DNA from: an uncultured Flavobacteriaceae bacterium
GTDB lineage: Bacteria; Bacteroidota; Bacteroidia; Flavobacteriales; Flavobacteriaceae
Reading direction: 5' to 3'
Assembly: GCA_947502975.1 (NCBI GenBank)
Contig: CANNBV010000003.1
Coordinates: 558,001 to 622,000 of the forward strand
Length of the DNA: 64,000 bases
The stretch's first letter is position 1, and each line of letters begins with the position of its first letter. Under the pieces are notes generated by a model that was given only the letters and a program-made list of their open reading frames with translations, did no database searches and was not told where the DNA came from. Positions 22,226 to 56,355 of this stretch are shown one piece after another. The position numbers and the translations under genes were made by a program.

Positions 22226-22271
22226 TTTTGTTTAACTTTTTTTATTATTCGTTAAACATTTTGTATCTTTA
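22226..22271 (+). promoter_or_regulatory. Bipartite regulon motif, site 1, with promoter of photolyase operon 1
   Basis: TTTTGTTTA at 22226-22234 is followed after 17 bases by TTAAACA at 22252-22258, and the -7 element TATCTTTA lies at 22264-22271. The halves GTTTAAC and GTTAAAC form an imperfect inverted repeat. The ATG of the TetR-like gene is at 22289. Site 2 (30930) has the same halves, spacing and -7 position; site 3 is at 56304. Confidence 0.75.
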
Positions 22272-22288
22272 CCATAAATAACAACATT

Positions 22289-22945
22289 ATGGCGAAGAAA
22301 AAATCAGTTTCTAAAAACAATATCCTTACATGGTACATGGATTATGTGTTGGAACACAACGCTAATCCCAAAACAGTATTTGCTTTTGCTAAAATGCACA
22401 ATTTTGAAGAAGCAAAATTCTATGAGTATTTCGCTTCATTTGAAGCGATTGAGAAAGGCATTTTTGAAGCGTTTTTTACCAACTCAATCAATGTATTACA
22501 TAAAAGTGAGGACTATAAAATTTTTGATGCCAGGAATAAACTCTTAAGTTTTTACTACACATTTTTTGAAAACCTTACAGCAAACAGAAGTTATGTAAAT
22601 CATGTTTTAGATAAATATAAAAAAGATCTAAAAGGGTTAAAAATGCTTTCTGGATTAAAAAAACACTTCACACATTATGTTAGTGAACTGGGTATTCAAA
22701 TGTTGGATATTAAGCAAGAGCAGCTAGAAAAAATTCAAGACAACGCTTTGAAAGAATCAGCGTGGTTACAATTATTATTAACCATGAAATTCTGGCTGGA
22801 TGATACATCCGCATCATTCGAGAAAACCGATATATTCATTGAAAAATCAGTGAACACTACTTTTGATGTCTTAGATATCGCACCTTTAAAAAGTGTGCTA
22901 GACTTAGGCAAATTCCTATTTAAAGAAAAGTTTCAAATGAACTAA
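22289..22945 (+). CDS. TetR-like protein heading the photolyase operon
   Basis: The 218-residue all-helical protein has an N-terminal segment that fits a TetR helix-turn-helix (NPKTVFAFAKMHNFEEAKFYEYFASFEAIEKGIF, about residues 28-62) and a longer ligand-domain-like C-terminal part without conserved catalytic features. The HTH is less canonical than in typical TetR repressors. It starts operon 1 and is directly followed by the ABC1 kinase gene, an arrangement I know from photolyase/carotenoid regions of Flavobacteriaceae. It could regulate the operon, perhaps through the TTTTGTTTA motif, or have lost DNA binding. Confidence 0.75.
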   Translation: MAKKKSVSKNNILTWYMDYVLEHNANPKTVFAFAKMHNFEEAKFYEYFASFEAIEKGIFEAFFTNSINVLHKSEDYKIFDARNKLLSFYYTFFENLTANRSYVNHVLDKYKKDLKGLKMLSGLKKHFTHYVSELGIQMLDIKQEQLEKIQDNALKESAWLQLLLTMKFWLDDTSASFEKTDIFIEKSVNTTFDVLDIAPLKSVLDLGKFLFKEKFQMN

Positions 22946-22954
22946 AATCGATCA

Positions 22955-24268
22955 ATGAAAACCATAGATAACATACCTACATCAAAAATTAAACGCGCTA
23001 CTAAGCTAGTATCTACAGGTGCTAAAGTAGGCGTTAATTATTTAAAATATTATGGTGATAAACTTATAAACACCGAAGAAGAAGCTAAAGAGCGTTTAAA
23101 TAAAAATAACGCTACAGATATATATGATGGACTAAAACAATTAAAAGGAAGTGCTCTAAAAGTTGCACAAATGCTAAGTATGGAGAAGAGTATTCTACCT
23201 CAAGCCTATGTAGAAAAGTTTTCTTTAGCTCAGTTTTCTGTACCACCTTTATCACCTCCACTAGTTATAAAAACATTTAAAAAATATTTCGGAAAACACC
23301 CTAACGATTTGTTTGATACTTTCAATGCAACTTCTGTTAACGCTGCTAGCATCGGTCAGGTGCATATTGCAACTAAAAATGGGAAAAAACTTGCTGTGAA
23401 AATCCAATATCCAGGAGTTGCAGAAAGTATTGCTTCAGATTTAGCCATGGTAAAACCTGTGGCAATGAGCATGTTTAATATCAAAGGAAAGGATTCCGAT
23501 AAATATTTTAAAGAAGTAGAACACAAATTGGTTGAGGAGACTAATTATATTCTAGAAGTAGAGCAAAGCAAAGAAATATCAAAAGCTTGTGCTCATATTT
23601 CAAATTTAAAATTCCCTCAGTATTACGAAGACTTATCTTCTGAACGTATCATCACCATGGATTATATGGAAGGTGAGCATCTTTCTGAATTTACCGCGCA
23701 CAATACAAACATCAAAACAGCACAAAAATTAGGACAAGCCCTTTGGGATTTTTACATGTACCAAATTCATAATTTAAAAAAGGTACACGCAGACCCTCAT
23801 CCTGGTAACTTTCTAATTTCTGAAAAAGGAGAATTAATTGCTTTAGATTTTGGGTGTATGAAATCCATTCCACAGGAATTTTATACGCCCTATTTTGAGC
23901 TAGCAAAACCTGAAAATGTGAACAATAGAGATTATTTTGTCTCTAAACTATACGAGCTTGAAATTCTTAAAGAAGATGACACTAAAGAAGAATTATCCTT
24001 TTTTACAGATATGTTTCACGAAATGTTAAGCCTATTCACGCAACCATTTCATCAAGAAAATTTCGATTTTTCTGATGCTGGTTTCTTTGGAAAAATTGCT
24101 GAACTAGGAGAGCGCTATTCTAAAAGCACAGACTTAAAAAAAATGAACGGGAATCGTGGTTCCAAACATTTTATTTATATCAATAGAACATTTTTTGGAC
24201 TATATAATTTAATGTTTGACTTAAAAGCTAAGAACATAAAAATAAACAATTACCTAAGGTTGTCGTAA
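22955..24268 (+). CDS. ABC1/UbiB (AarF) atypical kinase-like protein
   Basis: The 437 residues show the ABC1 family signatures in order. They are the modified KxGQ-type motif LKGSALKVAQMLSME (about residues 64-78), an alanine-rich nucleotide loop NAASIGQVHIA, the lysine in AVKIQYPG, the catalytic loop VHADPHPGNFLI, and the metal-binding ALDFGCM. These proteins bind ATP and support isoprenoid quinone synthesis or, in plastids, lipid and photo-oxidative stress responses. The KxGQ motif reads KVAQ here, with alanine for glycine. Position between the regulator and flavin reductase suggests a photoprotective role (inference). Confidence 0.9.
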   Translation: MKTIDNIPTSKIKRATKLVSTGAKVGVNYLKYYGDKLINTEEEAKERLNKNNATDIYDGLKQLKGSALKVAQMLSMEKSILPQAYVEKFSLAQFSVPPLSPPLVIKTFKKYFGKHPNDLFDTFNATSVNAASIGQVHIATKNGKKLAVKIQYPGVAESIASDLAMVKPVAMSMFNIKGKDSDKYFKEVEHKLVEETNYILEVEQSKEISKACAHISNLKFPQYYEDLSSERIITMDYMEGEHLSEFTAHNTNIKTAQKLGQALWDFYMYQIHNLKKVHADPHPGNFLISEKGELIALDFGCMKSIPQEFYTPYFELAKPENVNNRDYFVSKLYELEILKEDDTKEELSFFTDMFHEMLSLFTQPFHQENFDFSDAGFFGKIAELGERYSKSTDLKKMNGNRGSKHFIYINRTFFGLYNLMFDLKAKNIKINNYLRLS

Positions 24269-24269
24269 T

Positions 24270-24902
24270 ATGAAATATTTCAGTGAACAAGACATACAAA
24301 ATCTTAATCATCTTTATAAGATCAACCTGATCAACAGCTGCTCTGGATATAAATCGGCAAATTTAATAGGTTCTATTTCTAAAGATGGCATTGAGAATGT
24401 TGCTGTTTTTAGCTCCATGACGCATATAGGCTCAAGTCCTGCTATGCTTGGTTTCTTCCTAAGACCAACTACAGTAATTAGAAACACCTATGAAAATTTA
24501 AAAGCAACAGGTTTCTACACTGTTAATCATATACACAAAGCAATTTTAAGTGACGCACATCATACATCAGCGAAATACGATAGTAATATATCAGAATTTG
24601 ATGTTACCAATTTAGAAGCAGAGTACAAAACCGAATTCTCCGCCCCTTTTGTAAAAAATGCACCAATTCAATTAGCAATGCAATTTGTTGAAGAATATGA
24701 GATTAAGGCTAATAATACCATTCTTGTTATAGGCAAAGTAGTTGGATTATATGTTAATGATGAACTCATCGAAGATGATGGATTTATAAACCTTTCCAAA
24801 GCTGAAGTTGCTGCTATTAATGGCTTAGACGGGTATGCCGTTCCACAAACAAAAACACGCTATGGGTATCAAAGACCAAAAGCGCTAATACATAACTCAT
24901 GA
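24270..24902 (+). CDS. Flavin reductase-like, FMN-binding protein
   Basis: The 210-residue protein is a split-barrel flavin-binding domain of the flavin reductase/DIM6-NTAB type: CSGYKSANLIGSISKDGIENVAVFSSMTHIGSSPAMLGFFLRP is the FMN-contact region. It would bind FMN and reduce it with NAD(P)H, or use it as cofactor. In this operon it may feed reduced flavin to FAD-dependent photolyases, an inference from context. It begins one base after the ABC1 gene and overlaps the epimerase gene by four bases (ATGA). Confidence 0.87.
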   Translation: MKYFSEQDIQNLNHLYKINLINSCSGYKSANLIGSISKDGIENVAVFSSMTHIGSSPAMLGFFLRPTTVIRNTYENLKATGFYTVNHIHKAILSDAHHTSAKYDSNISEFDVTNLEAEYKTEFSAPFVKNAPIQLAMQFVEEYEIKANNTILVIGKVVGLYVNDELIEDDGFINLSKAEVAAINGLDGYAVPQTKTRYGYQRPKALIHNS

Positions 24903-26368
24903 ATATACTTGTAACTGGAGCAACAGGCTATATTGGAAAACGATTAATTCCTTTTTTATTAAATCAAGGACATACTGTCGTGTGTGTGGTAAGAGATAGA
25001 TTAAGAGCCGAAAAAAGTTATTTAGAAGATGATAAAGTCTTCGTAATTGAAGCTGATTTTTTAAAACCAGAATCCCTAGAAAATATTCCTAAAAAAATTG
25101 ATGTTGCATATTATCTCATTCATTCTATGTCGAATTCTTCAAAAGATTTTGAATCTCTTGAAGAGCGCTGTGCCATTAATTTTAAAAATTACATAGAAAC
25201 TACAGATACGGAACAAGTAATTTACTTAAGTGGTATTACTAATGAAGATGAACTTTCTAAACATTTACGTTCAAGAAAAAACGTAGAAGAACAATTAAAA
25301 TCAGACAGGTATGCATTAACCATTTTTAAGGCAGGTATCATTGTAGGCTCTGGTAGCTCTTCATTCGAAATAATTAGAGATCTTGTTGAAAAACTTCCTT
25401 TTATGATAGCGCCAAAATGGTTAAATACTAAAAGTCAACCTTTAGCTGTAAGGGATGTTTTAGCATTTTTATCAAAAGCAGCAGGAAATGTAGAGGTTTA
25501 CAACAAATCGTATGATGTTTTTGGCCCAGAGATTATTACATACAAGGACATGTTATTGCAATTTGCCGAAGTAAGAGGATTAAAACGCTACATTCTTACA
25601 GTTCCAGTTATGACACCAAAATTATCATCGTATTGGTTGTATTTTGTAACATCAACATCTTACAAATTAGCAACGTCTTTGGTGGACAGCATGGGAATTC
25701 AAATCATAGGCAAAAAGAGTGATATCAACAATCTACTAAAAGTAAAGCCAATTACCTACAAAGCAGCTGTAGAATTAGCGTTTGAAAAAATTGAACAAAA
25801 TAGCATTGTATCTAGCTGGAAGGATTCTATGGTTAGCAGCGGTAGACTTGCAAACCGTATACATAAATATGTAAATGTGCCAAAGTTTGGCTGTTTTAAA
25901 GATTATAAAGAACGTCAAATAATTGATGCAGACGAAACCATAGAAAAAATTTGGCGTATTGGTGGAGAGAACGGATGGTACTATGGTACATTTTTATGGC
26001 GTATTAGAGGTTATGTTGATAAGCTTTTTGGAGGGATAGGTTTAAGACGTGGGCGCACAAGCCCAACTGAACTAGATGCTGGAGACGCTCTGGATTTCTG
26101 GCGTGTGATATATGCAGACAAAACTAAAAGAAAATTGTTGCTGTATGCAGAGATGCGATTGCCTGGAGAAGCCTGGTTAGAATTTAAAATAGAAGACAAC
26201 AAATTAAAACAAACAGCAACATTTAGACCTCGTGGACTTTGGGGTAGATTATATTGGTATGCTGTACTACCATTTCATGGATTTATTTTTTCTGGAATGA
26301 TTAATAAACTCGTTAATGTTGAGTCACAAGAAACAATATTTACCACAGAAAACGTGTCCAATATGTAA
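24899..26368 (+). CDS. NAD(P)-binding epimerase-like protein with DUF2867 domain
   Basis: The 489 residues consist of an extended-SDR Rossmann domain ([18 protein letters not shown], GxxGxxG; about residues 1-290) fused to a C-terminal DUF2867 domain (about 330-475, with [20 protein letters not shown] and [12 protein letters not shown]). The architecture is the YbjT/complex-I-assembly-like type fused to an SRPBCC-like lipid-binding fold. The substrate is unknown. The last 53 bases overlap the small DUF2256 gene in another frame. Confidence 0.88.
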
Positions 26369-26465
26369 TCGCCCTTTTTCATGGAGAAAGAAATGGGAAA
26401 AGAATTGGGAACATGTAAAATATTGTAGTGAGCGATGCAGAAGAAACAAAACAATATTGGTTTAG
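26316..26465 (+). CDS. DUF2256 zinc-ribbon mini-protein overlapping both neighbours
   Basis: A 49-residue frame begins at ATG 26316 inside the epimerase gene and ends at 26465 inside the CRY-DASH gene, in a frame distinct from each. It encodes [20 protein letters not shown] followed by [14 protein letters not shown], the DUF2256 pattern with two Cys pairs (C14/C17 and C37/C41) that should hold a zinc ion, and a Trp/Lys-rich centre. The family is usually found next to photolyase or cryptochrome genes. The overlaps (53 and 31 bases) imply translational coupling. Function is unknown; RNA or DNA binding is conceivable. Confidence 0.88.
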
Positions 26466-27745
26466 TTTGGTTTAGAAACAATTTAAGAGTTAATGATAAT
26501 GTGGTTTTAAATAAAGCCATAATGCAACACAAGCACCTTATTGCTGCTTACTGCTTTGACCCTAGACATTTTGAAGTTGATACGTTTGGTTTCAAAAAAA
26601 CAAAAAAATTTAGAGCTAAGTTTCTCATAGAAGCCATCCAAGATTTAAAGAAAAGCCTTAACGATATTAATATTGAATTGTTTATTTATCAAAACAAACC
26701 AGAACATACAATTCCAAACCTGGTTAAGCAATTCAATATAAATTCTATATATCTGCAAAAGGAATGGACAAATGAAGAAGTTCAAGTTTTAGAACGTGTT
26801 AAATCAAATAGTCCAGAGAATACCTCATTCCATGAATGCTATGACCAGTTTCTATTTCATCCAGAAGATGTAGACATATCTTTTAATGAAATCCCACAGA
26901 TATTTACCAATTTTAGAAAAAAGGTTGAAAAATATAGTGTGATAAGACCAGAGAGCTATCCGTTACCTTCAGAACCCATTCAAAAGATTTCTAATCCTAC
27001 AAAAATCCCAACGCTTGAAGATTTAGGATTTGAAAATTTCGCCCTCAATCCTAATTCAGCATTTCCATTTGAAGGCGGCGAAAATTCAGCTTTAAGTCGT
27101 TTGGATGATTATTGCTTTCAAACTAAAAAATTAGGGTTTTATAAAAAAACAAGAAATGGCTTGATTGGTACTGATTATAGCTCCAAATTTTCGCCATGGC
27201 TAGCTAATGGTAGTATTTCGGCAAGAACAATTTATTGGAACGTTAAAAGGTTTGAAAAAGAACATTATAAAAATCAATCTACTTATTGGTTGATTTTTGA
27301 ACTCATCTGGAGAGATTATTTTAAATATATTTCATTAAAACACGGTAATAGAATTTTCAAAATTGGAGGTATTCTAAGTAAAGACTATAAATGGGAAACT
27401 GATAACGTTCTAGTTAAGCAATGGATAAATGGGCAAACCATATCATCATTTGTAAATGCAAACATGATAGAGCTCAAAAAAACGGGGTGGATGAGCAATA
27501 GAGGACGACAGAACACAGCCTCTTTTTTTGCAAAGGATTTAAAATTAGATTGGAGAATAGGTGCAGCTTATTTTGAGTCTATACTAATAGACTATGATGT
27601 GCACAGCAATTATGGTAATTGGATGTATGTTTCTGGAGTTGGTAACGATCCAAGAGATAGAAAATTTAATGTGAATTTGCAAGCTGAGCGGTATGATGCT
27701 AGTGGTAAGTTTCAAAATTTATGGCTGCAAAAAACCTTGTTTTAA
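26435..27745 (+). CDS. CRY-DASH-type cryptochrome/photolyase
   Basis: The 436 residues contain the N-terminal antenna domain ([23 protein letters not shown]) and the helical FAD domain. The DASH subfamily is recognised by [25 protein letters not shown] and, in the FAD loop, [21 protein letters not shown] followed by a terminal WL motif. CRY-DASH proteins bind FAD and an antenna pterin, repair cyclobutane dimers mainly in single-stranded DNA, and may signal blue light. The start used here lies inside the DUF2256 gene; there is no better one downstream. It is the first of four paralogous genes in 10 kb. Confidence 0.92.
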
Positions 27746-27750
27746 TACCA

Positions 27751-27854
27751 TGTCTGTTCAAGTGATTTGTGAATAACGAGCTAATTGTATTGAGAACAAT
27801 TTAAGGATCTCGATATAATTCTGATAAAAAAAATCAGAATTACTAGATGTGACA
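27751..27854. repeat. TGTC...GACA-bounded repeat in the photolyase operon
   Basis: The 104-base spacer element starts TGTCTGTTCAAGTG and ends ACTAGATGTGACA. It contains TTGTATTGAGAA and a perfect hairpin with arms AATTCTGAT (27817-27825) and ATCAGAATT (27833-27841). It shares blocks with 12882-12926. It separates the CRY-DASH gene from the FeS-type gene and may attenuate or stabilise the transcript. Confidence 0.45.
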
Positions 27855-27866
27855 ATAACTTTAAAA

Positions 27867-29399
27867 ATGAAAACACTAAGACTCATATTAGGTGACCAAC
27901 TCAATATAAAACACTCATGGTTTAAGGAAACTGATGCTAATGTCACCTATTGCCTTTTTGAAATGAGACAAGAAACGGATTATGTAACCCATCATATTCA
28001 AAAAGTGATTGGTTTTTTTGCTGCTATGCGTCAGTTTTCAGAACATCTAAAATCTAGTGGACAAAAGGTTATCTACTTCAAAATTAATGATGAAAATAAT
28101 GTGCATAGTTTAACTAACAACATTTCAAAATTAATAGAAGAACATCATATCGAAAACTTCGAATATATTTTTCCAGATGAATACAGATTAGATCAGCAAC
28201 TGCAAAGCTTTTGTAAATCGATAAATATTACTTACAAAGTATACACAGCAGAACATTTTTACACAAAACGCGAAGATTTAGACATCTTCTTTAAAGGCAA
28301 AAAACAGTATCTCATGGAAAATTTCTATAGAGATATGCGCAAGAAGCATAATATTTTGATGGTTGCTGATCAGCCAGAAGGCGGCAAATGGAATTACGAT
28401 AAAAGCAACAGAAATAAATGGAAAGGTGATGTTGAAATCCCTCCTTATAAATTATTCAAAAATGGTGTTTCTGAAATCGTAAAGGATATTGAAAATGCTA
28501 AAATCGATACTATCGGTAAGTTTGAAACTAAAACATTCTCCTACCCTATTTCTCGTTCTCAGGCCTTAGAGCAGCTAAAATACTTTTGTGAGCATTTATT
28601 GAAATATTTTGGGGATTATCAAGATGCCATGCATACCGAACAGGAGTATCTATTTCACTCTAGATTATCTTTTGCCATGAATATAAAATTAGTATCTCCA
28701 AAAGATGTTGTAACTACTGTTATGAATTACTACAGAAAACATGGAAAAGATATTAACATTTCGCAAGTAGAAGGTTTTATTCGCCAAATTATTGGTTGGC
28801 GTGAATATATGCGTGGGATGTATTGGGCCTTTATGCCAGAATACAAATCTAAAAACGAATTAAATAATCATAATAATTTGCCTGACTTTTTCTGGACAGG
28901 AAATACAAAAATGAATTGCTTAAAACATGCAATAACTAATTCATTAGATAATGGGTATGCGCACCACATTCAACGTTTAATGATTACTGGTAATTATGCG
29001 CTGTTAACCCAAACTAATCCGGACGAAGTCGATGATTGGTATTTAGGCATTTATGTAGACGCTGTAGAATGGGTACAACTTACCAATACAAGAGGCATGA
29101 GCCAGTTTGCTGATGGTGGGAAAATTGCAACTAAACCTTATGTGTCGTCTGGATCTTACATTAATAAAATGAGTAACTATTGTGGAGATTGCACATACAA
29201 CAGAAATAAAAAAGTAGGAGAAGACGCTTGCCCTTTTAATAGTTTATATTGGAATTTTTTGAATCAAAAAAGAGAACAACTGGGAAACAACTTCAGAATG
29301 AAAATGATGTACAGCTTATTAGATAAAATGGATAAGCAAAATATACAAGATATTAAAGAAAAAGCACAACATATAATTGCGAATCAAGATGACTACTAA
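27867..29399 (+). CDS. FeS-type bacterial cryptochrome/photolyase (PhrB-like, (6-4) repair)
   Basis: Starting at ATG 27867 (MKTLRLILGDQLN) the protein is 510 residues. The RLILGDQLN opening and the C-terminal cysteine-rich segment define the FeS-BCP subfamily. Four cysteines at about residues 351 (MNCLKHA), 439 and 442 (YCGDC) and 455 (DACPFN) fall at nearly the same numbers as the 4Fe-4S ligands I recall for Agrobacterium PhrB (350, 438, 441, 454). Such enzymes bind FAD and a lumazine antenna and repair (6-4) photoproducts. An upstream GTG at 27849 would add six residues without family support. It overlaps the next gene by 11 bases. Confidence 0.94.
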   Translation: MKTLRLILGDQLNIKHSWFKETDANVTYCLFEMRQETDYVTHHIQKVIGFFAAMRQFSEHLKSSGQKVIYFKINDENNVHSLTNNISKLIEEHHIENFEYIFPDEYRLDQQLQSFCKSINITYKVYTAEHFYTKREDLDIFFKGKKQYLMENFYRDMRKKHNILMVADQPEGGKWNYDKSNRNKWKGDVEIPPYKLFKNGVSEIVKDIENAKIDTIGKFETKTFSYPISRSQALEQLKYFCEHLLKYFGDYQDAMHTEQEYLFHSRLSFAMNIKLVSPKDVVTTVMNYYRKHGKDINISQVEGFIRQIIGWREYMRGMYWAFMPEYKSKNELNNHNNLPDFFWTGNTKMNCLKHAITNSLDNGYAHHIQRLMITGNYALLTQTNPDEVDDWYLGIYVDAVEWVQLTNTRGMSQFADGGKIATKPYVSSGSYINKMSNYCGDCTYNRNKKVGEDACPFNSLYWNFLNQKREQLGNNFRMKMMYSLLDKMDKQNIQDIKEKAQHIIANQDDY

Positions 29400-30870
29400 G
29401 CCTCATATCACTATCGTTTGGTTAAAACGTGATTTACGTTTGTATGACAATGAAGCGATTTATAATGCTTTAAAAACTGGAAAACCTACACTTCTACTCT
29501 ATAGTTTTGAACCTCTTTTAATGAACGACCCGCATTATAGCGAACGTCATTGGAATTTTATAAAAGAATCTATTGTTGATTTAAACAAGGCATTAGAAAC
29601 TTACAATTCTAAAATACTTGCCGTACAATCAGATATAATAGCAGCAATTAACCAGTTGCAAACACATTATCATATTACAGATATTTATTCACATCAGGAA
29701 ACTGGAATTTTAGTCACTTTTGAAAGAGATAAAAACTTTAAACGCTTCTGTAAAAACAACTTGATTAATTGGCATGAAAATACAAATAATGGTGTGCAAC
29801 GCGGATTAAAAAACAGAAACGGTTGGACTGAAATGGTAGATGCCTTTTATGCCGTAGAACCATTGTCGTTCAATCCAAGCAATAATCAGCTATTAAACAT
29901 TCAGGAAATTAATATGCTTGAAAAACATTTTAATCTTCCTACTTTAAACACACCCGAATTTACACCATTCCAAAAAGGTGGGCGCTCCATAGGTCTAAGG
30001 TATTTAAAATCATTTTTTGAAGAACGTTACTCTAATTATATGTTCAATATTTCAAAACCTGAACTTGCACGAATCAGTTGTAGTAGAATTTCTCCATACA
30101 TAGCTTGGGGAAACTTATCGGTAAGGGAAGTGTATCATAAAGCCTATCATTTAAAGAAAACATCAAAGCACAAAAAAGCATTAGAAGCTTTTATGTCTCG
30201 CTTAAGATGGCAAACTCATTTCATACAAAAATTCGAAATGGAACATACTATGGAAGAAGCTAGTGTAAACAAAGGCTTTCATAAATTAAAAAAAAGTATT
30301 TCTAAACAATACCAAAACGCATGGAAAACTGGGCAAACTGGATATCCACTTGTAGATGCATCTATGCGTTGCTTAAATGAGACTGGATATCTTAATTTTA
30401 GAATGCGCGCTCTTGTTGTTTCTTTTTTTACACATAATTTGTGGCAACCTTGGCAAGAAGCCACTACATATCTATCTCAAATGTTTTTAGATTTTGAACC
30501 TGGTATACATTTTCCACAACTACAAATGCAGGCTGGAGAAACTGGGATAAACATGTTACGCATCTATAATCCTATAAAAAATAGTTTAGAACACGATCCT
30601 GAAGCATCCTTTATAAAAAAATGGGTGCCAGAACTTGATACTTTAGATATACCTTTTGTACATCAGCCTTACTTAATGACTGAAATGGAACAACAGTTCT
30701 ATAATTTTCAATTAGGCAAAGATTACCCAAAACCTATTGTAGATTTAGAAACTACAAGAAAAAAGGCTGGAGATACACTTTGGAAACTCCGTCAAGATAA
30801 ATCGGTTATGGAAGAAAGTAAGCGAATCCTTAAAAAGCACACACTTAAAAAGCGACTTCACAACACTTAA
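29389..30870 (+). CDS. Unusual cryptochrome/photolyase-family FAD protein
   Basis: The ATG at 29389 gives 493 residues. The antenna domain is normal (ITIVWLKRDLRLYDNEAIYNAL). The FAD domain keeps RLRWQTHFIQKFE and GYPLVDASMRCLNETGYLNFRMR. In place of the usual N-W-Q-W-x-x-G-T/S-G loop it has FEPGIHFPQLQMQAGETGIN followed by MLRIYNPIKNSLEHDP. This marks a separate branch often found beside FeS-type photolyase genes. FAD binding is likely; whether it repairs DNA or senses light is not known to me. Translation is coupled to the FeS-type gene by an 11-base overlap. Confidence 0.88.
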   Translation: MTTKPHITIVWLKRDLRLYDNEAIYNALKTGKPTLLLYSFEPLLMNDPHYSERHWNFIKESIVDLNKALETYNSKILAVQSDIIAAINQLQTHYHITDIYSHQETGILVTFERDKNFKRFCKNNLINWHENTNNGVQRGLKNRNGWTEMVDAFYAVEPLSFNPSNNQLLNIQEINMLEKHFNLPTLNTPEFTPFQKGGRSIGLRYLKSFFEERYSNYMFNISKPELARISCSRISPYIAWGNLSVREVYHKAYHLKKTSKHKKALEAFMSRLRWQTHFIQKFEMEHTMEEASVNKGFHKLKKSISKQYQNAWKTGQTGYPLVDASMRCLNETGYLNFRMRALVVSFFTHNLWQPWQEATTYLSQMFLDFEPGIHFPQLQMQAGETGINMLRIYNPIKNSLEHDPEASFIKKWVPELDTLDIPFVHQPYLMTEMEQQFYNFQLGKDYPKPIVDLETTRKKAGDTLWKLRQDKSVMEESKRILKKHTLKKRLHNT

Positions 30871-30929
30871 ATACTGATTTACAAGGAATTGCAATACATT
30901 ATAAATTTTTTTGATAGCTCGATGTTAAA

Positions 30930-30975
30930 TTTTGTTTAACTTATTTATAAAAAACTTAAACATTTTGTATATTTG
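30930..30975 (+). promoter_or_regulatory. Bipartite regulon motif, site 2, with promoter of photolyase operon 2
   Basis: TTTTGTTTA at 30930-30938, 17 bases, TTAAACA at 30956-30962, then TTTTGTAT running into the -7 element TATATTTG at 30968-30975. Spacing is identical to site 1 at 22226. Of the 41 positions from the first T to the -7 box the two sites agree at most, including 13 contiguous at the left and 15 at the right. The ATG of the next gene is at 30993. Confidence 0.8.
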
Positions 30976-30992: not shown

Positions 30993-31421
30993 ATGGTATT
31001 AAACTCAACACATCATATTAAAGAACAAAAGCAAATTATATCTGATTTGGTTGGGCGTTCATTTACACTTTTAGAGTCGTTAAAAATGAAGGGGATTGGC
31101 TCAAAACGCATGATAATTGGTGAAGTAAGTCCAAATTTAAAAAATTACATGAACAATATTGCAGATATCAACTATGCTAACATTGAATTACGCACAGGTG
31201 GTATACTTATTTTCATTAACAAAGGTTTACAAAACTTTACTTGGGCAATTCCTTATTATCAATTAGTAATGTACAAAACTAATGGGGCTAGCATTCATGC
31301 TCAAGGAAAGTTTATTCATTTTAAAAACAACAAAACATTTAAAGAGAATAAAAGATTCTTTGCAAAGATGTTAGACCAAAAAATAAAATACGACGAACAA
31401 TATAATTTTCAAGGTATATGA
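30993..31421 (+). CDS. Conserved hypothetical protein, first gene of photolyase operon 2
   Basis: The 142-residue protein has no recognised domain. It begins with a helical stretch (THHIKEQKQIISDLVGRSFTLLES), then alternates strands and helices (ANIELRTGGILIFINKGLQNFTWAIPYYQLVMYKTNGASIHAQGKFIHF), suggesting a small alpha/beta or PH-like fold. It lacks signal peptide and membrane segments, so it is cytoplasmic. It overlaps the TIGR03643 gene by four bases (ATGA) and is driven by regulon site 2. I know of similar proteins beside photolyase genes in flavobacteria, but no function. Confidence 0.75.
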   Translation: MVLNSTHHIKEQKQIISDLVGRSFTLLESLKMKGIGSKRMIIGEVSPNLKNYMNNIADINYANIELRTGGILIFINKGLQNFTWAIPYYQLVMYKTNGASIHAQGKFIHFKNNKTFKENKRFFAKMLDQKIKYDEQYNFQGI

Positions 31422-31690
31422 TATTATCTAATAATGACATAGATAGAGTTATAGAAATGGCCTGGGAAGATCGTACAACATTTGAAGCCATAGAATATCA
31501 GTTTGGGTTAAAAGAACAAGATGTTATTAAACTAATGCGAAGAGAAATGAAACTCAACAGTTTCAAAATGTGGCGTAAACGTGTTCAAGGACGTTCAACC
31601 AAACATGAAAAATTAAGAGTTTACGAAAAAGGACGCTTTAAATGTAGCAGACAAAAGCAAATAACACATAATAAAATTTCAAAACGTTAA
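31418..31690 (+). CDS. TIGR03643 (DUF2805) family protein
   Basis: This 90-residue basic protein matches TIGR03643/DUF2805: LSNNDIDRVIEMAWEDRTTFEAIEYQFGLKEQDVIKLMRREMKLNSFKMWRKRVQGRSTKH. The first half looks like a helix-turn-helix of sigma-factor-like type; the second is strongly basic, so nucleic-acid binding is plausible. The family is typically linked to photolyase/cryptochrome genes. Start codon overlaps the stop of the preceding gene. Confidence 0.88.
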   Translation: MILSNNDIDRVIEMAWEDRTTFEAIEYQFGLKEQDVIKLMRREMKLNSFKMWRKRVQGRSTKHEKLRVYEKGRFKCSRQKQITHNKISKR

Positions 31691-31739
31691 CGTGCTTTGA
31701 TTAATTCAAAATATTAAGACAGCACACAAAAAAGATGAC

Positions 31740-32435
31740 ATGCAATTAGAAAAATTAAAGACAAAAACTAACGGACACAAATTAAACGGGTTTACTGTAG
31801 AAGATATTGGAGATGATCATCTCTACACAGGATTAGAAACTCCAATGAAAGCTGATGCTTTCAAACTATCAGATATTGAGAAAAAAGAACGCATTGCCAT
31901 TTTATTTGAAGAAATCATGGATGTTATGGGTTTAGATTTAACGGATGATTCTCTTCAAGGTACTCCAAAACGTGTGGCCAAAATGTATATAGATGAAATT
32001 TTCTCTGGATTAAATCCAGAAAACAAACCCAAAGTGGCGTTGTTTGATAATAAATACCAATACAATCAGATGTTGGTTGAGAAAAACATTACTTTCTATT
32101 CAAATTGCGAACATCATTTTGTTCCAATCATAGGAAAAGCTCATGTAGCTTATATTTCATCTGGAAAAGTTATTGGACTTTCAAAATTGAATAGAATCGT
32201 GCAATATTATGCCAAACGTCCTCAGGTTCAAGAGCGCTTAACTAACCAAATTGCAAACGAATTAAAAACAATTTTAGATACAGAAGATGTTGCTGTCATC
32301 ATTGACGCAAAACACCTATGCGTATCTTCTAGAGGTATAAAAGATGATACCTCATCAACAGTTACCGCGTTTTACGGCGGACAATTTAATACTTCAGAAA
32401 AAATTACAGAATTACAAAATTATTTAAATAGTTAA
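31740..32435 (+). CDS. folE: GTP cyclohydrolase I
   Basis: The 231-residue enzyme converts GTP to 7,8-dihydroneopterin triphosphate, the first step of folate and pterin synthesis. Zinc ligands are C123 and H126 in SNCEHHFVPI, and C194 in KHLCVSSRG, with H192 nearby. TPKRVAKMYIDEIF and the terminal TVTAFYGGQF are also conserved. An N-terminal extension of about 40 residues is present. In this operon it probably supplies the pterin antenna or another pterin for photolyases (inference), perhaps as a second folE copy. This can be tested by looking for a further folE elsewhere. Confidence 0.95.
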   Translation: MQLEKLKTKTNGHKLNGFTVEDIGDDHLYTGLETPMKADAFKLSDIEKKERIAILFEEIMDVMGLDLTDDSLQGTPKRVAKMYIDEIFSGLNPENKPKVALFDNKYQYNQMLVEKNITFYSNCEHHFVPIIGKAHVAYISSGKVIGLSKLNRIVQYYAKRPQVQERLTNQIANELKTILDTEDVAVIIDAKHLCVSSRGIKDDTSSTVTAFYGGQFNTSEKITELQNYLNS

Positions 32436-32439
32436 CATC

Positions 32440-32664
32440 ATGGAATTGGAATTAATAAATAGAGCTTTAGAGTTTGAACAAAGAAAAATGAGATCATTAT
32501 CTACAAGTGATCGTGTAAAACTTTCAAGAGAAGCAAAAGCTTTGATCTTAGATTTAAATCAAATCTATAAGCAAAGAAAAGATGATAATATTATGGATAT
32601 CATGAAACGTTTAACCGTAATAAAAAGAAAAGTAGAAAAACGCTTGAAAGGGCGTCTATTATAA
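32440..32664 (+). CDS. Small basic helical protein, paralogue 1
   Basis: The 74-residue protein, starting four bases after folE, is all-helical and charged (NRALEFEQRKMRSLSTSDRV, LILDLNQIYKQRKD, IMKRLTVIKRKVEKRLKGR). It is about 55 percent identical by eye to the 71-residue product of the gene at 32820, a tandem duplication. I do not recognise the family. No cysteine or metal motif is present. Confidence 0.75.
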   Translation: MELELINRALEFEQRKMRSLSTSDRVKLSREAKALILDLNQIYKQRKDDNIMDIMKRLTVIKRKVEKRLKGRLL

Positions 32665-32819
32665 TAGCATAACTATTAATAATAAGACCTAAATCTTATA
32701 AAATATTAAATTTTATCTAATAAATCACTATAAAAATAGGTAATCTTCTATATTTTATTATATTGCGAAACTGTCCAAAACTGGATAGTTAATACAAAAT
32801 ATAGTAAGGTTAGAAAATT

Positions 32820-33035
32820 ATGGAGATTATTGACAAAGCTTTAGAATTCGAGCAACGCAGACATACGTTTAAAACAACGAGTGAGCGTATCGAATCTTCT
32901 AGAGAAGTAAAAAGTTTAATATTAGGTTTAAACGATATCTACAAAGTAGAAAAAGATCCAGAAATTATGGATTTGATGAAACGTTTAACAGTAATTAAAC
33001 AGAAAATAGAAAAGCGGCTAAAGGGCAGGCCATAA
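32820..33035 (+). CDS. Small basic helical protein, paralogue 2
   Basis: This 71-residue protein repeats the pattern of the gene at 32440: IDKALEFEQRR, SSREVKSLILGLNDIYK, MDLMKRLTVIKQKIEKRLKGR. The C-terminal 20 residues are almost identical between the two. The 155-base AT-rich spacer between the paralogues contains a weak hairpin (AACTGTCC / GGATAGTT) at about 32768-32789 and no clear promoter. Function unknown. Confidence 0.75.
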   Translation: MEIIDKALEFEQRRHTFKTTSERIESSREVKSLILGLNDIYKVEKDPEIMDLMKRLTVIKQKIEKRLKGRP

Positions 33036-33056
33036 AAACTAAATGCCCTGAAACCC

Positions 33057-33740
33057 ATGAAAACAATAATAGTAGTTGGTGGAAGTAAGGGCATTGGAAA
33101 AGCTTTAGTTGAGAAACTATTAGCAACTTGTAATGTAATAAACATTAGTAGAAGTATTCCAGAGACATCGCACAACAACCTAACTTACCACCAATGCGAT
33201 GTTACACAAGACGAATTACCAGAAATTGATAGTGCCGACGGACTTGTATACTGTCCAGGCAGTATAAACTTAAAACCTATAGGGCGTTTAAGTATTGATG
33301 ATTTTAAAAACGATTTTGAAATTAATGTCCTTGGTGCAGTTAAGGTGATTCAAAAATACCTTTCAGTTCTTAAGAACGGAAGCACACCCTCTATTGTCTT
33401 GTTTAGCACGGTTGCAGCTAAATTGGGGATGCCCTATCATGCGAGTATCGCTGTTGCGAAATCTGGTGTTGAAGGTTTAGTAAAATCATTAGGCGCAGAG
33501 TTAGCTCCTACCCTACGCATCAATGCTATTGCCCCTACTGTTACTGATACAGATTTAGCCTCAAAGTTACTACGTAATGATAAAATGATTGAAAATATCA
33601 CGGAGCGTCATCCTTTGAAAAAATTCTTATCACCAGAAGAAGTTGCAGATATGGCAGAGTTTCTGCTATCTGAAAAAGCCTTGTCTGTTTCTGGACAAGT
33701 ATTTGAAATGGATTGCGGTATTGTAAGTTTTAAAATTTAA
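33057..33740 (+). CDS. Classical short-chain dehydrogenase/reductase
   Basis: The 227 residues have the SDR cofactor motif IIVVGGSKGIGKALVEKL, the NAG-like segment LVYCPGSINLKP, a catalytic serine in VLFSTVAAKLGMPYHASIAVAKSGVEG, and a C-terminal SGQVFEMDCG. In the position of YxxxK the sequence reads HASIAVAKSG, so tyrosine is replaced by histidine while the lysine is kept; tyrosine at PYHAS is one residue away and could serve. The substrate is unknown. The gene is embedded in photolyase operon 2. Confidence 0.88.
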   Translation: MKTIIVVGGSKGIGKALVEKLLATCNVINISRSIPETSHNNLTYHQCDVTQDELPEIDSADGLVYCPGSINLKPIGRLSIDDFKNDFEINVLGAVKVIQKYLSVLKNGSTPSIVLFSTVAAKLGMPYHASIAVAKSGVEGLVKSLGAELAPTLRINAIAPTVTDTDLASKLLRNDKMIENITERHPLKKFLSPEEVADMAEFLLSEKALSVSGQVFEMDCGIVSFKI

Positions 33741-33745
33741 ATAAC

Positions 33746-34297
33746 ATGAATCCCTTCAAAGCATTTATAGCCACAATGGGTAATAAAAACGAATCATTTA
33801 AAGTAGATGTTGAATCAATTTACGATATATCTATAAATGGGCTAAGTGGCGCCCCAATTGATTTATTTGATTTTAAAGGAAAGTATATAATCTTTGTAAA
33901 TGTAGCCTCTAAATGTGGTTTTACACCTCAATATAAAGATTTACAAAAGCTACATGAAGTTTATGGTGATGTCTTACAAGTTATAGGTGTACCATGCAAT
34001 CAATTTGGTAACCAAGAACCAGGTAATGCTAATGAGATTGAAAACTTTTGCCAAGTAAATTATGGTGTTGATTTTTTAATCACAGAAAAAATTGATGTAA
34101 AAGGAAAACATCAACATCCACTTTATACATGGTTGACACAAAAAGTAAACAATGGTGTTAAGGATTCTTCAGTAAAGTGGAATTTTCAAAAATACTTAGT
34201 TGACCCTAAAGGGAATTTAATAGATTATTATTTTTCTACAACAATCCCAATGAGTTCAAAAATCGTAAAACATTTAAAAGAAAATAGCTATGTTTAG
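33746..34297 (+). CDS. Glutathione peroxidase-like thiol peroxidase
   Basis: The 183-residue protein shows the peroxidatic cysteine in FVNVASKCGFTPQY, the glutamine-bearing GVPCNQFGNQEPG motif and the tryptophan/asparagine pair in VKWNFQKYLV, so the Cys-Gln-Trp-Asn tetrad is intact. It uses cysteine, not selenocysteine, and probably thioredoxin as reductant. It detoxifies hydroperoxides, which fits photo-oxidative stress. It lacks a signal peptide. The last eight bases overlap the next gene. Confidence 0.92.
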   Translation: MNPFKAFIATMGNKNESFKVDVESIYDISINGLSGAPIDLFDFKGKYIIFVNVASKCGFTPQYKDLQKLHEVYGDVLQVIGVPCNQFGNQEPGNANEIENFCQVNYGVDFLITEKIDVKGKHQHPLYTWLTQKVNNGVKDSSVKWNFQKYLVDPKGNLIDYYFSTTIPMSSKIVKHLKENSYV

Positions 34298-34466
34298 TCT
34301 TTTTAAAAGAAAATCTAAAAGAGAAAAATTAGAAGAAAAGTTTAAAAAATTGATGCAAGAGTGGCATGAATTATCTTCAATAAATAGATCTGCTAGTGAT
34401 AAAAAATATGCAGAAGCACAAGAAATTGCCAAAATATTGAACGATATGAAACATGAAGCTGCTTAA
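34290..34466 (+). CDS. Lacal_2735-type (DUF6435) small protein
   Basis: A 58-residue frame starts at ATG 34290, eight bases inside the peroxidase gene, and ends inside the TspO gene. The protein begins MFSLFKRKSKREKLEEKFKK and is a charged helical hairpin ending in EAQEIAKILNDMKHEAA. The MFxLFKxKS opening and length match the Lacal_2735 family of Flavobacteriia, which has no known function. Overlaps of 8 and 14 bases with neighbours argue for coupled translation. Confidence 0.8.
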   Translation: MFSLFKRKSKREKLEEKFKKLMQEWHELSSINRSASDKKYAEAQEIAKILNDMKHEAA

Positions 34467-34914
34467 ATACATCATTATTTTCCTGGTTATTAATTTTGGA
34501 GCATTAGCTATTGGTAGTTGGCTTATGGCAGATGGTCCACAAACAGATTGGTATATGGGCCTTAGTAAAGCCCCTTGGACACCTCCTGGCTGGGTTTTCG
34601 GAACCGCTTGGACTACAATCATGGTTTGCTTTTCTATTTATATGGCTTTACTATATAAAAAAACAAATAATACAACTGTTATAACCTTGTTTAGTATTCA
34701 ATTTGTACTTAATGTTATTTGGAATTATATTTTTTTCAATCAACATTATGTTGGCTTAGGCCTAACAGTAATCCTACTTTTAACATTTACAGTAGGAGCT
34801 TTTATCATACTGTTTAACAAGCAAATGAAATTAAAAACCATACTAATCCTTCCTTACTTAATTTGGTTGTGTATTGCTACATCACTAAATGCATATATCT
34901 TACTGAATAATTAA
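34453..34914 (+). CDS. tspO: TspO/MBR-family tryptophan-rich sensory protein
   Basis: The 153-residue protein has five membrane helices with the TspO pattern: YMGLSKAPWTPPGWVFGTAWTTIMV (signature P-x-W-x-P-P between helices 1 and 2) and FVLNVIWNYIFFNQH in helix 3. TspO binds porphyrins and cholesterol-like ligands; in Rhodobacter it modulates photopigment expression in response to light and oxygen. Its place between photolyase-operon genes supports a light or porphyrin stress role. It overlaps the preceding small gene by 14 bases. Confidence 0.93.
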   Translation: MKLLKYIIIFLVINFGALAIGSWLMADGPQTDWYMGLSKAPWTPPGWVFGTAWTTIMVCFSIYMALLYKKTNNTTVITLFSIQFVLNVIWNYIFFNQHYVGLGLTVILLLTFTVGAFIILFNKQMKLKTILILPYLIWLCIATSLNAYILLNN

Positions 34915-34916
34915 AT

Positions 34917-35378
34917 ATGAAAATATACAGACTGCATAAAAAACAAAACTTACCCATAACTATTGAAAAAGCATGGGATTTTTTGTCAGATCCCAAAAAC
35001 CTAAAAACCATTACTCCAGACTATATGGGATTTCATATTTTATCTGGTGCAGACAGACCCATGTTTGCTGGACAAATTATCCAATATATCGTTACTCCAG
35101 TTTTAGGTATAAAAACTAAATGGGTTACAGAAATAACGCATAGTGTAGACAAACAATATTTTGTAGATGAACAACGCTTTGGACCTTATGCTTTATGGCA
35201 TCACAAACACTTTATTAAAGCGATTGATGGTGGTGTAGAAATGGAAGATATTATTGATTATAAAGTTCCTTTTGGCTGGCTAGGACAACTTGTTCATCCT
35301 ATTTTAGTAAAACCAAAACTTGAAGAAATTTTTAAGTATAGAGCTCAAAAGCTAGAAGAGCTTTTTGGTAAATATTAA
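34917..35378 (+). CDS. SRPBCC (START-like) ligand-binding protein
   Basis: The 153 residues have the SRPBCC helix-grip pattern: IEKAWDFLSDPKNLKTITPDYMGFHIL at the N terminus, KTKWVTEITHSVDKQYFVDEQRFGPYALWHHKHFI in the middle and a long C-terminal helix (KPKLEEIFKYRAQKLEELF). Relatives are annotated as cell-division inhibitor-like or cyclase/dehydrase. A hydrophobic small molecule is the likely ligand. It begins two bases after tspO. Confidence 0.85.
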   Translation: MKIYRLHKKQNLPITIEKAWDFLSDPKNLKTITPDYMGFHILSGADRPMFAGQIIQYIVTPVLGIKTKWVTEITHSVDKQYFVDEQRFGPYALWHHKHFIKAIDGGVEMEDIIDYKVPFGWLGQLVHPILVKPKLEEIFKYRAQKLEELFGKY

Positions 35379-35392
35379 TATTATCTAAAATC

Positions 35393-35458
35393 TGTCTTTC
35401 TGAATTTGTTTAAGAATCTAATAAAATTATAAGACGCTGAAACAAATTTAGCGTGACA
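35393..35458. repeat. 66-bp MITE-like inverted repeat element
   Basis: The left end, TGTCTTTCTGAATTTGTTTA, and the inverted right end, TGTCACGCTAAATTTGTTTC, match at most positions over 27 bases. Each end is itself a small hairpin (TTCTGAA.TTAAGAA; CGCTGAA.TTTAGCG). No coding capacity. It lies before the CPD-type photolyase gene. The hairpin at 6271-6301 carries the same core. Confidence 0.65.
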
Positions 35459-35476
35459 AAATAATGTCTATATAAG

Positions 35477-36781
35477 ATGAAACAACACATAAATATTTTT
35501 TGGTTTAGACGGGATTTAAGATTAGACGATAATGTCGGATTCTACGAAGCCCTAAAAGGAAATCTCCCTATACTACCAATTTTTATTTTTGATTCTGAAA
35601 TTTTAGACAAACTACCTAAAGATGATGCACGCGTAACATTTATACATGAAATGCTCCAGAGCATGTGTCAGATTTTACAAGATGAATACAACAGCAGTAT
35701 TGCTATATACCATGGAAAACCTATTGAAATTTATAAAACATTAATTGAAGAATATAATATTAATGCGGTTTATACAAACCATGATTACGAACCTTATGCA
35801 AAAGAACGTGATGACAGTATCAAATCGTATTTAAGTGAAAATAATATTGAATTTATAACATTCAAAGACCAAGTTATTTTTGAGAAAGACGAAGTTGTAA
35901 AGGGAGATGGAACCCCTTATGTGGTGTATACACCTTACATGAAAACATGGAAAGAAAAGTTTAAAACTTACACTTTAGAAATTTTTCATACCAAATCATA
36001 TTTTGGTAATTTAATTCAAGATAGTCATTTACATAGTTTAAGTTTATCAGATATCGGTTTTACAAAATCATCTCAAAAAATTATACACTATACAGTAACG
36101 CCAACATTGATACAAGAGTATGAAGCTACTCGAAATTTTCCAGCGCAAGACGCTACCTCTAAATTAGGTCCACATTTACGATTTGGAACTGTTAGTATTC
36201 GTAAAATGATAAAAAAGGCTATTGCCGAAAAAAATGAAATTTTTTGGCAAGAACTCATTTGGCGTGAATTTTTCATGCAAATTCTTTGGCATTTTCCACA
36301 TACTGCAGAGAAAAGTTTCAAATCGAAATATGATCGTATCCAATGGCGTAATAATGAAGAAGAGTTTAAATTTTGGTGTGAAGGTAAAACTGGCTATCCA
36401 TTAGTAGATGCAGGCATGCGTCAATTAAATGCCACTGGATTTATGCACAACCGTGTGCGCATGTTAGTAGGTAGTTTTTTATGTAAACACTTACTTATAG
36501 ATTGGCGTTGGGGCGAAGCTTATTTTGCAGAAAAATTACACGACTATGAAATGGCCAGTAATATTGGTAATTGGCAATGGGTTGCTGGTAGTGGTGTTGA
36601 TGCAGCTCCTTATTTTAGAATTTTTAATCCAACCACACAAATACAAAAGTTTGATAAGGATTTGAACTACATAAAACAATGGGTACCAGATTTTCAGGAA
36701 TTAACATACCCTAAACCTATTGTAGACCATAAGTATGCTCGCGAACGTTGTTTAGAAACTTATAAAAGTGCTGTAAGTTAA
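35477..36781 (+). CDS. phrB: Class I CPD-type deoxyribodipyrimidine photolyase
   Basis: The 434-residue protein has the N-terminal antenna domain (INIFWFRRDLRLDDNVGFYEAL) and the full FAD domain: ELIWREFFMQILWHFP, GYPLVDAGMRQLNATGFMHNRVRM, and the canonical loop ASNIGNWQWVAGSGVDAAPYFRIFNP, including the NWQW active-site residues. It repairs cyclobutane pyrimidine dimers in double-stranded DNA using blue light and FADH-. It is shorter than E. coli PhrB but within the range of class I enzymes. It probably closes operon 2, 98 bases after the SRPBCC gene, with a MITE-like repeat between. Confidence 0.93.
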   Translation: MKQHINIFWFRRDLRLDDNVGFYEALKGNLPILPIFIFDSEILDKLPKDDARVTFIHEMLQSMCQILQDEYNSSIAIYHGKPIEIYKTLIEEYNINAVYTNHDYEPYAKERDDSIKSYLSENNIEFITFKDQVIFEKDEVVKGDGTPYVVYTPYMKTWKEKFKTYTLEIFHTKSYFGNLIQDSHLHSLSLSDIGFTKSSQKIIHYTVTPTLIQEYEATRNFPAQDATSKLGPHLRFGTVSIRKMIKKAIAEKNEIFWQELIWREFFMQILWHFPHTAEKSFKSKYDRIQWRNNEEEFKFWCEGKTGYPLVDAGMRQLNATGFMHNRVRMLVGSFLCKHLLIDWRWGEAYFAEKLHDYEMASNIGNWQWVAGSGVDAAPYFRIFNPTTQIQKFDKDLNYIKQWVPDFQELTYPKPIVDHKYARERCLETYKSAVS

Positions 36782-56303: not shown

Positions 56304-56335
56304 TTTTGTTTATTTTTTTTGTTTTTTTGTTAAAC
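56304..56335 (+). promoter_or_regulatory. Bipartite regulon motif, site 3, before carotenoid ketolase gene
   Basis: TTTTGTTTA at 56304-56312 is followed after 17 bases by TTAAACA at 56330-56336, the spacing of sites 1 and 2. The right half also sits in a near-perfect palindrome (TTTTTTGTTAAACAAAAAA). No TAnnTTTG is found at the -7 position seen in the other two sites, and the region is rich in T runs, so this site is less certain. The ketolase ATG is at 56356. Confidence 0.55.
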
Positions 56336-56355
56336 AAAAAAATTACAAACGAGAG

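Follow-up and report, generated by a model that had tools for sequence, protein, structure and literature searches.

A conserved inverted repeat upstream of two flavobacterial photolyase operons as the putative operator of a LitR/CarH-type regulator

The window analysed here, a 64-kb stretch of DNA from an uncultured Flavobacteriaceae bacterium (C3:558001-622000 of a 4.55-Mb genome), carries two photolyase operons that are preceded by the same bipartite motif. This 41-bp pattern, TTTTGTTTAACTT-N13-TTAAACATTTTGTAT, matches exactly at both places (operators 1 and 2, Table 1): no further match with up to 3 mismatches was found elsewhere in the window, and the pattern did not occur once across 100 dinucleotide shuffles of it. 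The core of the motif is an inverted repeat, TGTTTAAC-N14-GTTAAACA, with a dyad that is perfect at operator 1 and bears one mismatch at operator 2; the N13 centres of the two sites are unlike each other. At both sites a -7-like box (TATCTTTA and TATATTTG, respectively) follows at equal offset, and by eye the right half of the motif lies in the promoter spacer. The original prediction, a bipartite motif shared by the two photolyase operons with differing variable centres, a right half in the spacer and -7 boxes at the same distance, was thus borne out. Loosely matched half-sites (3 mismatches, N16 spacer) are not above chance in the window (42 found versus 51 expected), and a spacer one base shorter than that of the motif yields background counts (148 and 133 versus 161 and 141 in the reversed control).

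Judged by the spacing of their genes, operons 1 and 2 are probably each read as one transcript. Operon 1 encodes a TetR_C_23 protein, an ABC1 kinase-like and a flavin reductase-like protein, an SDR-DUF2867 protein, a DASH cryptochrome, a DPRP and a photolyase/cryptochrome. The products of operon 2 are a 142-aa protein, a DUF2805/TIGR03643 protein, FolE, two small paralogues, an SDR, a glutathione peroxidase, TspO, an SRPBCC-like protein (named by eye) and a photolyase.

Table 1. Motif sites, -7-like boxes and associated genes in the window (positions of the 64-kb stretch; E-values of motif sites are from the motif model R1, see text)
Feature	Position	Strand	Remarks
Operator 1, photolyase operon 1	22226..22266	+	dyad core 22229-22258; R1 E = 8.8e-7 (training-set site)
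-7-like box TATCTTTA	22264..22271	+	35 bp past the first base of the dyad
Operon 1 (putative single transcript)	22289..30870	+	first start codon 22289
Operator 2, photolyase operon 2	30930..30970	+	dyad core 30933-30962; R1 E = 8.5e-6 (training-set site)
-7-like box TATATTTG	30968..30975	+	same register as the box of operator 1
Operon 2 (putative single transcript)	30993..36781	+	first start codon 30993
Weaker third operator copy	56307..56336	+	2 mismatches in the 16-base core; R1 E = 0.0245
CrtW-like beta-carotene ketolase gene	56356..57054	+	NF045690 E = 1.4e-68, 231 bits vs cut-off 350

As the regulator, the original prediction had named a B12-dependent protein of the LitR/CarH type. Such a protein is indeed encoded in the genome, on a different contig and not in the window. 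The B12-binding_2 domain (PF02607) was found twice genome-wide: in a 914-aa open frame, which by its size we took for methionine synthase, and in a 300-aa MerR protein. The gene of the latter, called litR here, lies directly 5′ of crtI-crtB-crtZ-crtY (named from matches to Pfam/NCBIfam-type models, crtZ by eye). Between litR and crtI the dyad recurs without a mismatch in its core. LitR starts with a MerR helix-turn-helix (HTH) domain (PF13411, E = 3.5e-14) with the recognition helix RIWEKRY, in which R25, W27, E28, R30 and Y31 are invariant among 30 aligned homologues. The four-helix B12-binding_2 domain (E = 8.5e-9) contains the Wx9EH motif: in the same alignment all sequences share W143, Q144, E153 and H193, and nearly all share H154, which means that both Wx9EH and the histidine of the lower ligand are retained. 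In the Rossmann part of the B12-binding region E191xH193 is invariant and G196 nearly so, while SxT/V and GG appear degenerate by eye. The closest solved structures are CarH chains (E about 3e-14), which we take to be from Thermus. Given the retained Wx9EH motif and lower-ligand His, together with a cobalamin adenosyltransferase gene in the genome, LitR is likely to use B12. A further candidate, MliR of Bizionia, was excluded as the regulator; it is a 109-residue protein (PMC9478572).

We then compared 60 genomes of relatives, the source genome included, of which 43 encode homologues of LitR (E <= 1e-20), 28 of the 142-aa protein (E <= 1e-10) and 31 of the TetR-like protein (E <= 1e-20); 30 litR, 28 142-aa and 30 TetR-like loci were compared. 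With the dyad required to keep >=12/14 core bases within 250 bp upstream, it is conserved 5′ of the TetR-like gene (operator 1) in 24/30 loci and 5′ of the 142-aa gene (operator 2) in 18/28, all 10 misses being matches of <=43% identity. At crtI, just 3′ of litR, a dyad of >=13/14 is present in 22/30 loci, and a weaker form, TTTTGTTTAAC...ATGAACA (>=11/14), spans the start codon of litR in 24/30. The motif is therefore kept at the orthologous operons of sister species; a lack of such conservation had been named as grounds for refuting the original prediction, which thus survives this test. At the litR leader site L039:9439-9468 the second half (ATGAACA) overlaps the start codon, which couples the operator to the Met-Asn codons.

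For a genome-wide view we used R1, a motif model built from sequence only on 63 sites from the relatives and the source genome. Its E-values are rough, and the crtI, operator 1 and operator 2 sites of the source genome, which rank first there, were in the training set (crtI, 2.6e-7; for the others see Table 1). The next ranks, outside the training set, belong to a GLPGLI gene (2.0e-5) and to a mevalonate-kinase-like gene (4.5e-5), whose product scores far under the threshold that the model for mevalonate kinase requires. Sites at C8:547, at a fasciclin gene (C8:21509), at C8:23129 and at C5:342994 follow with E-values of 7e-4 to 4e-3; lower ranks are taken by the crtW site of the window, by that of a YceI gene (0.155) and by the leader of litR (0.5). 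Counted simply as the dyad with <=2 mismatches, the motif occurs at 19 places of the source genome, versus 9 for the reversed control. The CrtW-like gene of the window, with the weaker operator copy just 5′ of it (a copy that the original prediction did not include), is unlinked to the crt operon, and a CrtW homologue in G008 is likewise preceded by the motif.

In the relatives, 30 of 50 further loci with R1 sites adjoin a homologue (by BLAST) of a target from the source genome: fasciclin in 13 cases, mevalonate-kinase-like and GLPGLI genes in 6 each, and CrtW, SDR-DUF2867, SRPBCC, TspO and CrtI once each. Among the other 20 loci are 2 DUF2452-type genes (one by Pfam, one by eye), 3 genes related by eye to that of the secreted protein at C8:547 and, in G039, an ECF-like sigma factor gene beside litR (by eye), as well as HSP90-like neighbours and large outer-membrane-receptor-like genes (all by eye) and places without a clear gene; at one of the 20, L233, the site lies outside the part examined by script. 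Strong sites do fall on photolyase, carotenoid/isoprenoid and litR genes, but fasciclin and GLPGLI genes are frequent targets too. These two recur as orthologues and are not scattered unrelated genes, so that the original prediction also survives the other test named for it, a large number of sites before unrelated genes.

A photolyase-type pattern with 27 fixed bases was also scanned over 84,980 species. This gave 108 stretches, and the following figures refer to the 80 listed of these, in which several contigs appear twice and from which the source genome was possibly excluded. All 80 belong to Bacteroidota by title, mostly to what we take to be Flavobacteriaceae genera. In 74 of them a gene of the operator 1 or operator 2 type lies downstream, the first gene encoding a TetR-like protein (33), the 142-aa protein (32), an SRPBCC protein (8) or an SDR-DUF2867 protein (1); the remaining 6 comprise 4 with a small protein of the Lacal_2735/DUF6435 type (one scanned), a cut 142-aa gene (by eye) and one cut by the end of the stretch. 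A photolyase/cryptochrome homologue is encoded within 51 of the stretches; counted likewise within the stretch, 26 of the other 29 encode different members of the reference set, while no member at all was seen in 3.

The occurrence of the motif is associated with that of litR. At an R1 cut-off of E <= 0.001, in a search with stricter filters that lose weak matches, 32 of the 60 genomes contain a match: 32/43 with litR and 0/17 without (Fisher, 5.5e-8 by genome), or 21/31 versus 0/14 when counted by genus (1.2e-5). Four genomes that lack litR while keeping crtI and/or the operator 2 photolyase (G015, G040, G045 and G053) have no R1 match. On these grounds, the motif is very probably the operator of a LitR/CarH-type regulator (MerR HTH plus B12-binding domain) that controls a flavobacterial regulon. 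The idea of a photolyase promoter motif has to be modified accordingly: it does precede both photolyase operons, but it appears to be an operator rather than a promoter element and is not confined to photolyase genes.

A number of observations weigh against this assignment. The association between litR and the motif is largely confounded, since litR and crtI co-occur (crtI at E <= 1e-60 is present in 42/43 genomes with litR and in 3/17 without) and most genomes lacking litR also lack the main targets; the clean subset that lacks litR and keeps targets comprises the above four genomes only, and all compared genomes share ancestry. Moreover, 11/43 genomes with litR show no match at E <= 0.001. 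In four of these (G041, G043, G046 and G050) the helix segment reads ..LRTWENRY-like instead of GIKAHTIRIWEKRY, a difference that speaks for the assignment, and G025 and G048 have intermediate recognition helices; in G021 and G055 the segment is retained, and related sequences that miss the cut-off lie 5′ of litR. G018, however, keeps most of the segment without having the motif, and conversely G036 bears the motif with a LitR of just 34% identity (the helices that were read are those of the eleven without G054 and G056). In the source genome, sites without known light link, for instance C5:342994 (0.004), C2:309081 (0.17) and C6:164579 (0.18), score at least as well as the litR leader, a weak site by R1 whose second half coincides with Met-Asn codons. 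As sites of this kind, such as the latter two, rank in between those of crtW, YceI and the litR leader, the YceI and litR leader sites are not supported by score alone; we keep the litR leader as a probable operator. With regard to the protein, its best NCBIfam match is TransRegCarH (NF052513, E = 3e-18), which favours the assignment, but the 66 bits lie far below the cut-off of 400, and because of this score the regulator is placed in or next to the LitR/CarH family. PF02310, the Rossmann B12-binding family, was not reported in the Pfam scan of LitR. Finally, the position of His132 in CarH of Thermus thermophilus (TtCarH) is occupied by Gln (Q144) in all 30 aligned LitRs, and by T or R in two distant motif-bearing relatives.

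What can be read from the DNA is the motif, its conservation, its set of targets, its genomic link to litR and the registers that it prefers relative to the -7 box (see below); we infer binding by LitR, repression, and light and B12 as the signal. In the mechanism that we propose, LitR, whose gene is located outside the window and just 5′ of the carotenoid genes, would recognize two half-sites TTAAACA, each holding the TnnACA of CarH, that point towards each other at a distance of about two helical turns. As long as it is dark, the protein, probably dimeric or in a larger oligomer and loaded with adenosylcobalamin, would sit on the promoter and occupy the DNA face used by RNA polymerase, so that the promoter is blocked. 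Light or loss of the cofactor would release it, resulting in the joint production of photolyases/cryptochromes, FolE, the products of carotenoid and isoprenoid genes, and envelope proteins. For this whole chain, a LitR operator with repression in the dark, light and adenosylcobalamin, the balance tips only slightly towards acceptance.

One alternative concerns the signal: LitR may bind the motif with cofactor use lost or changed and sense redox state, corrinoid supply or a partner protein instead of B12 photolysis. This is a variant within the operator reading and compatible with it. In CarH, the His after the Trp of Wx9EH (TtCarH His132) is described in many members (PMC9304148) and forms the light-state bis-His ligation in the Thermus protein (PMC10442372), so the Gln found throughout the 30 aligned LitRs speaks for the variant, as does the unreported PF02310. 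The H132A mutant of TtCarH was mostly tetrameric in the light in one study, while an earlier report saw disassembly (PMC10442372), and class II LitR provides a precedent for a family member that works through a LOV partner (PMC9758184). On the other hand, none of the 30 sequences deviates at W143, E153 or H193 and hardly any at H154, the genome has the adenosyltransferase gene and many targets are photoprotective. We consider a signal other than B12 photolysis unlikely, though well worth keeping in mind.

The arrangement of operator and promoter bears on how LitR would act. We defined the register as the distance from the first T of the dyad to a TAnnTTT[G/A] box and counted all sites apart from L240 and the fasciclin site of the source genome. 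The box is located at +35 in 23/24 operator 1 and 16/18 operator 2 sites, and at +36 in two DUF2452 sites, one SRPBCC and one fasciclin site. A second register, +15, places it between the half-sites: it is found in 20/22 crtI, 7/7 mevalonate-kinase-like, 7/7 GLPGLI, 7/12 fasciclin and 1/2 crtW sites. In the third, the box lies at -6, in 24/24 litR leaders and also in 4/24 operator 1 and 5/22 crtI sites; this register needs just an extra TA because the box partly overlaps the motif's own TTTTG. The main registers of -6, +15 and +35/36 are thus spaced in steps of ~21 bp, or two turns of B-DNA, across about ten gene families. Off register are 4/12 fasciclin sites, 1/2 crtW sites (that of the window), three sites of the C8:547 type and a CIA30-type site, and at the ECF and TspO sites several positions carry a box.

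A classical MerR activator, which distorts an over-long spacer, needs a fixed place in the promoter spacer. That LitR acts in this way would agree with its MerR-type HTH, with the right half lying in the spacer at operators 1 and 2 and with the lack, by eye, of a TTTG at the usual -33 distance there. Yet an activator must fill a fixed spacer and the motif takes up three main registers to the -7 box, at litR itself downstream of it; the several registers are therefore better explained by a repressor shutting out RNA polymerase on one face of the DNA. Characterized CarH and class II LitR proteins are repressors as well (PMC9304148, PMC9758184), and activation appears improbable to us.

The TetR-like protein encoded first in operon 1 had been put forward as another candidate, and it would then be a local autoregulator. 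Its gene is the first under operator 1 and it has a TetR C-terminal domain, but at E <= 0.001 the Pfam scan returned no TetR N-terminal HTH family, and a homologue (E <= 1e-20) is absent from 6/32 motif-bearing genomes (G022, G029, G030, G032, G038 and G049), all 32 of which have litR; G040 and G053, conversely, have the protein without the motif. This candidate has weakened to the point of being highly improbable. Two conserved blocks with one close to a -7-like box might also suggest a promoter element recognized by an alternative sigma factor in place of a repressor site, but this reading is barely credible given the inverted-repeat symmetry, the three main distances to the TAnnTTTG box and the additional presence of that standard -7-like box.

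The putative LitR operator can be compared with those of characterized systems. In T. thermophilus and Bacillus megaterium, CarH operators are tandem 11-bp direct repeats, nnnnTnnACAn, and across myxobacteria CarH operators are described as plastic (PMC9304148). Shared with CarH are the MerR HTH with its RxWE.RY helix, Wx9EH and ExHxxG, the control of crt genes, operators overlapping promoter elements and, here from sequence, the half-site TnnACA. The latter is present in 87/88 left and 85/88 right half-sites, counts that are partly given by construction as sites were chosen by their match to TGTTTAA/TTAAACA. In contrast to CarH, the flavobacterial operator has its two half-sites in inverted orientation, with the 8-mers separated by N14, and forms no tandem 11-bp array; Gln replaces the His132 of Thermus CarH, and the regulon is predicted to extend to photolyase, FolE, mevalonate-kinase-like, GLPGLI and fasciclin genes. 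The motif would therefore work like a CarH/LitR operator while failing, with its inverted half-sites, the direct-repeat definition. The class II LitRs of Pseudomonas (PplR1 and PmlR2) also belong to the LitR/CarH family and have paired half-sites over a promoter, that of a phrB-containing operon induced by light: these repressors bind TGTACA-N12-TGTACA there, and PhrB, CryB, FolE and an SDR are among the light-inducible genes (PMC9758184). They are, however, thought to be B12-free and work with a LOV protein (PMC9758184), whereas the flavobacterial LitR keeps Wx9EH and ExH and its operator core, TGTTTAAC-N14-GTTAAACA, has a longer spacing. Within the Flavobacteriales, a light-induced crt cluster is reported for Chryseobacterium lacus and a CarA/LitR-like regulator was guessed; the parts of that report compared here describe neither operator nor regulon (PMC7064467). 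Among the literature matches listed, judged by title and start of the abstract, with few subscription journals covered and the motif letters not queried, we found no paper on a flavobacterial LitR operator, the suggestion made for C. lacus coming closest.

More tentatively, and with somewhat less than even confidence, we propose a global photoprotection regulon of the Flavobacteriales under one LitR/CarH-type B12 photoreceptor, with a non-bis-His switch (Gln for His132), an inverted operator of its own and three promoter positions two turns apart at which repressor and RNA polymerase share a DNA face. The flavobacterial group is abundant in the sea. If correct, these bacteria would have a readable light-response code from which members of the regulon can be predicted, spanning photolyases, carotenoids and mevalonate-kinase-like, fasciclin and GLPGLI proteins, the last three without known light link. 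The operator type is absent from the CarH/LitR descriptions compared (PMC9304148, PMC9758184), and a natural CarH-like family without the light-state ligand histidine of Thermus CarH would make the need for bis-His ligation testable.

Several minor observations concern individual sites. A TGTTAA at 30923-30928 of the window resembles a half-site (TGTnnA) 10 bp 5′ of the operator 2 dyad and is a possible direct-repeat extension; this extra TGTnnA is present in 9/18 operator 2 sites and was seen at operator 2 only. The C8:23129 site (L174:4131-4480) is an operator/promoter of the +15 type behind the fasciclin gene with no intact long open reading frame downstream. A small RNA was considered here and dropped because what follows the site looks, by eye, like a short and decayed reading frame; the latter has a relative beside the fasciclin gene of G009 (L226). 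In G039 (L255), litR is followed by an ECF-like sigma factor gene (by eye) with two R1 sites in between, at C3:36585 and 36637; pairs of LitR and a sigma factor occur elsewhere. R1 sites stand beside an HSP90-like gene (by eye) in G022 (L239), G029 (L245) and perhaps G012 (L233). The two small paralogues of operon 2 are arranged in tandem (74 aa, 32440-32664, and 71 aa, 32820-33035); neither has a Pfam match, nor the 74-aa one a match in NCBIfam, and a relative of them (by eye) lies downstream of a motif site in G030 (L249).

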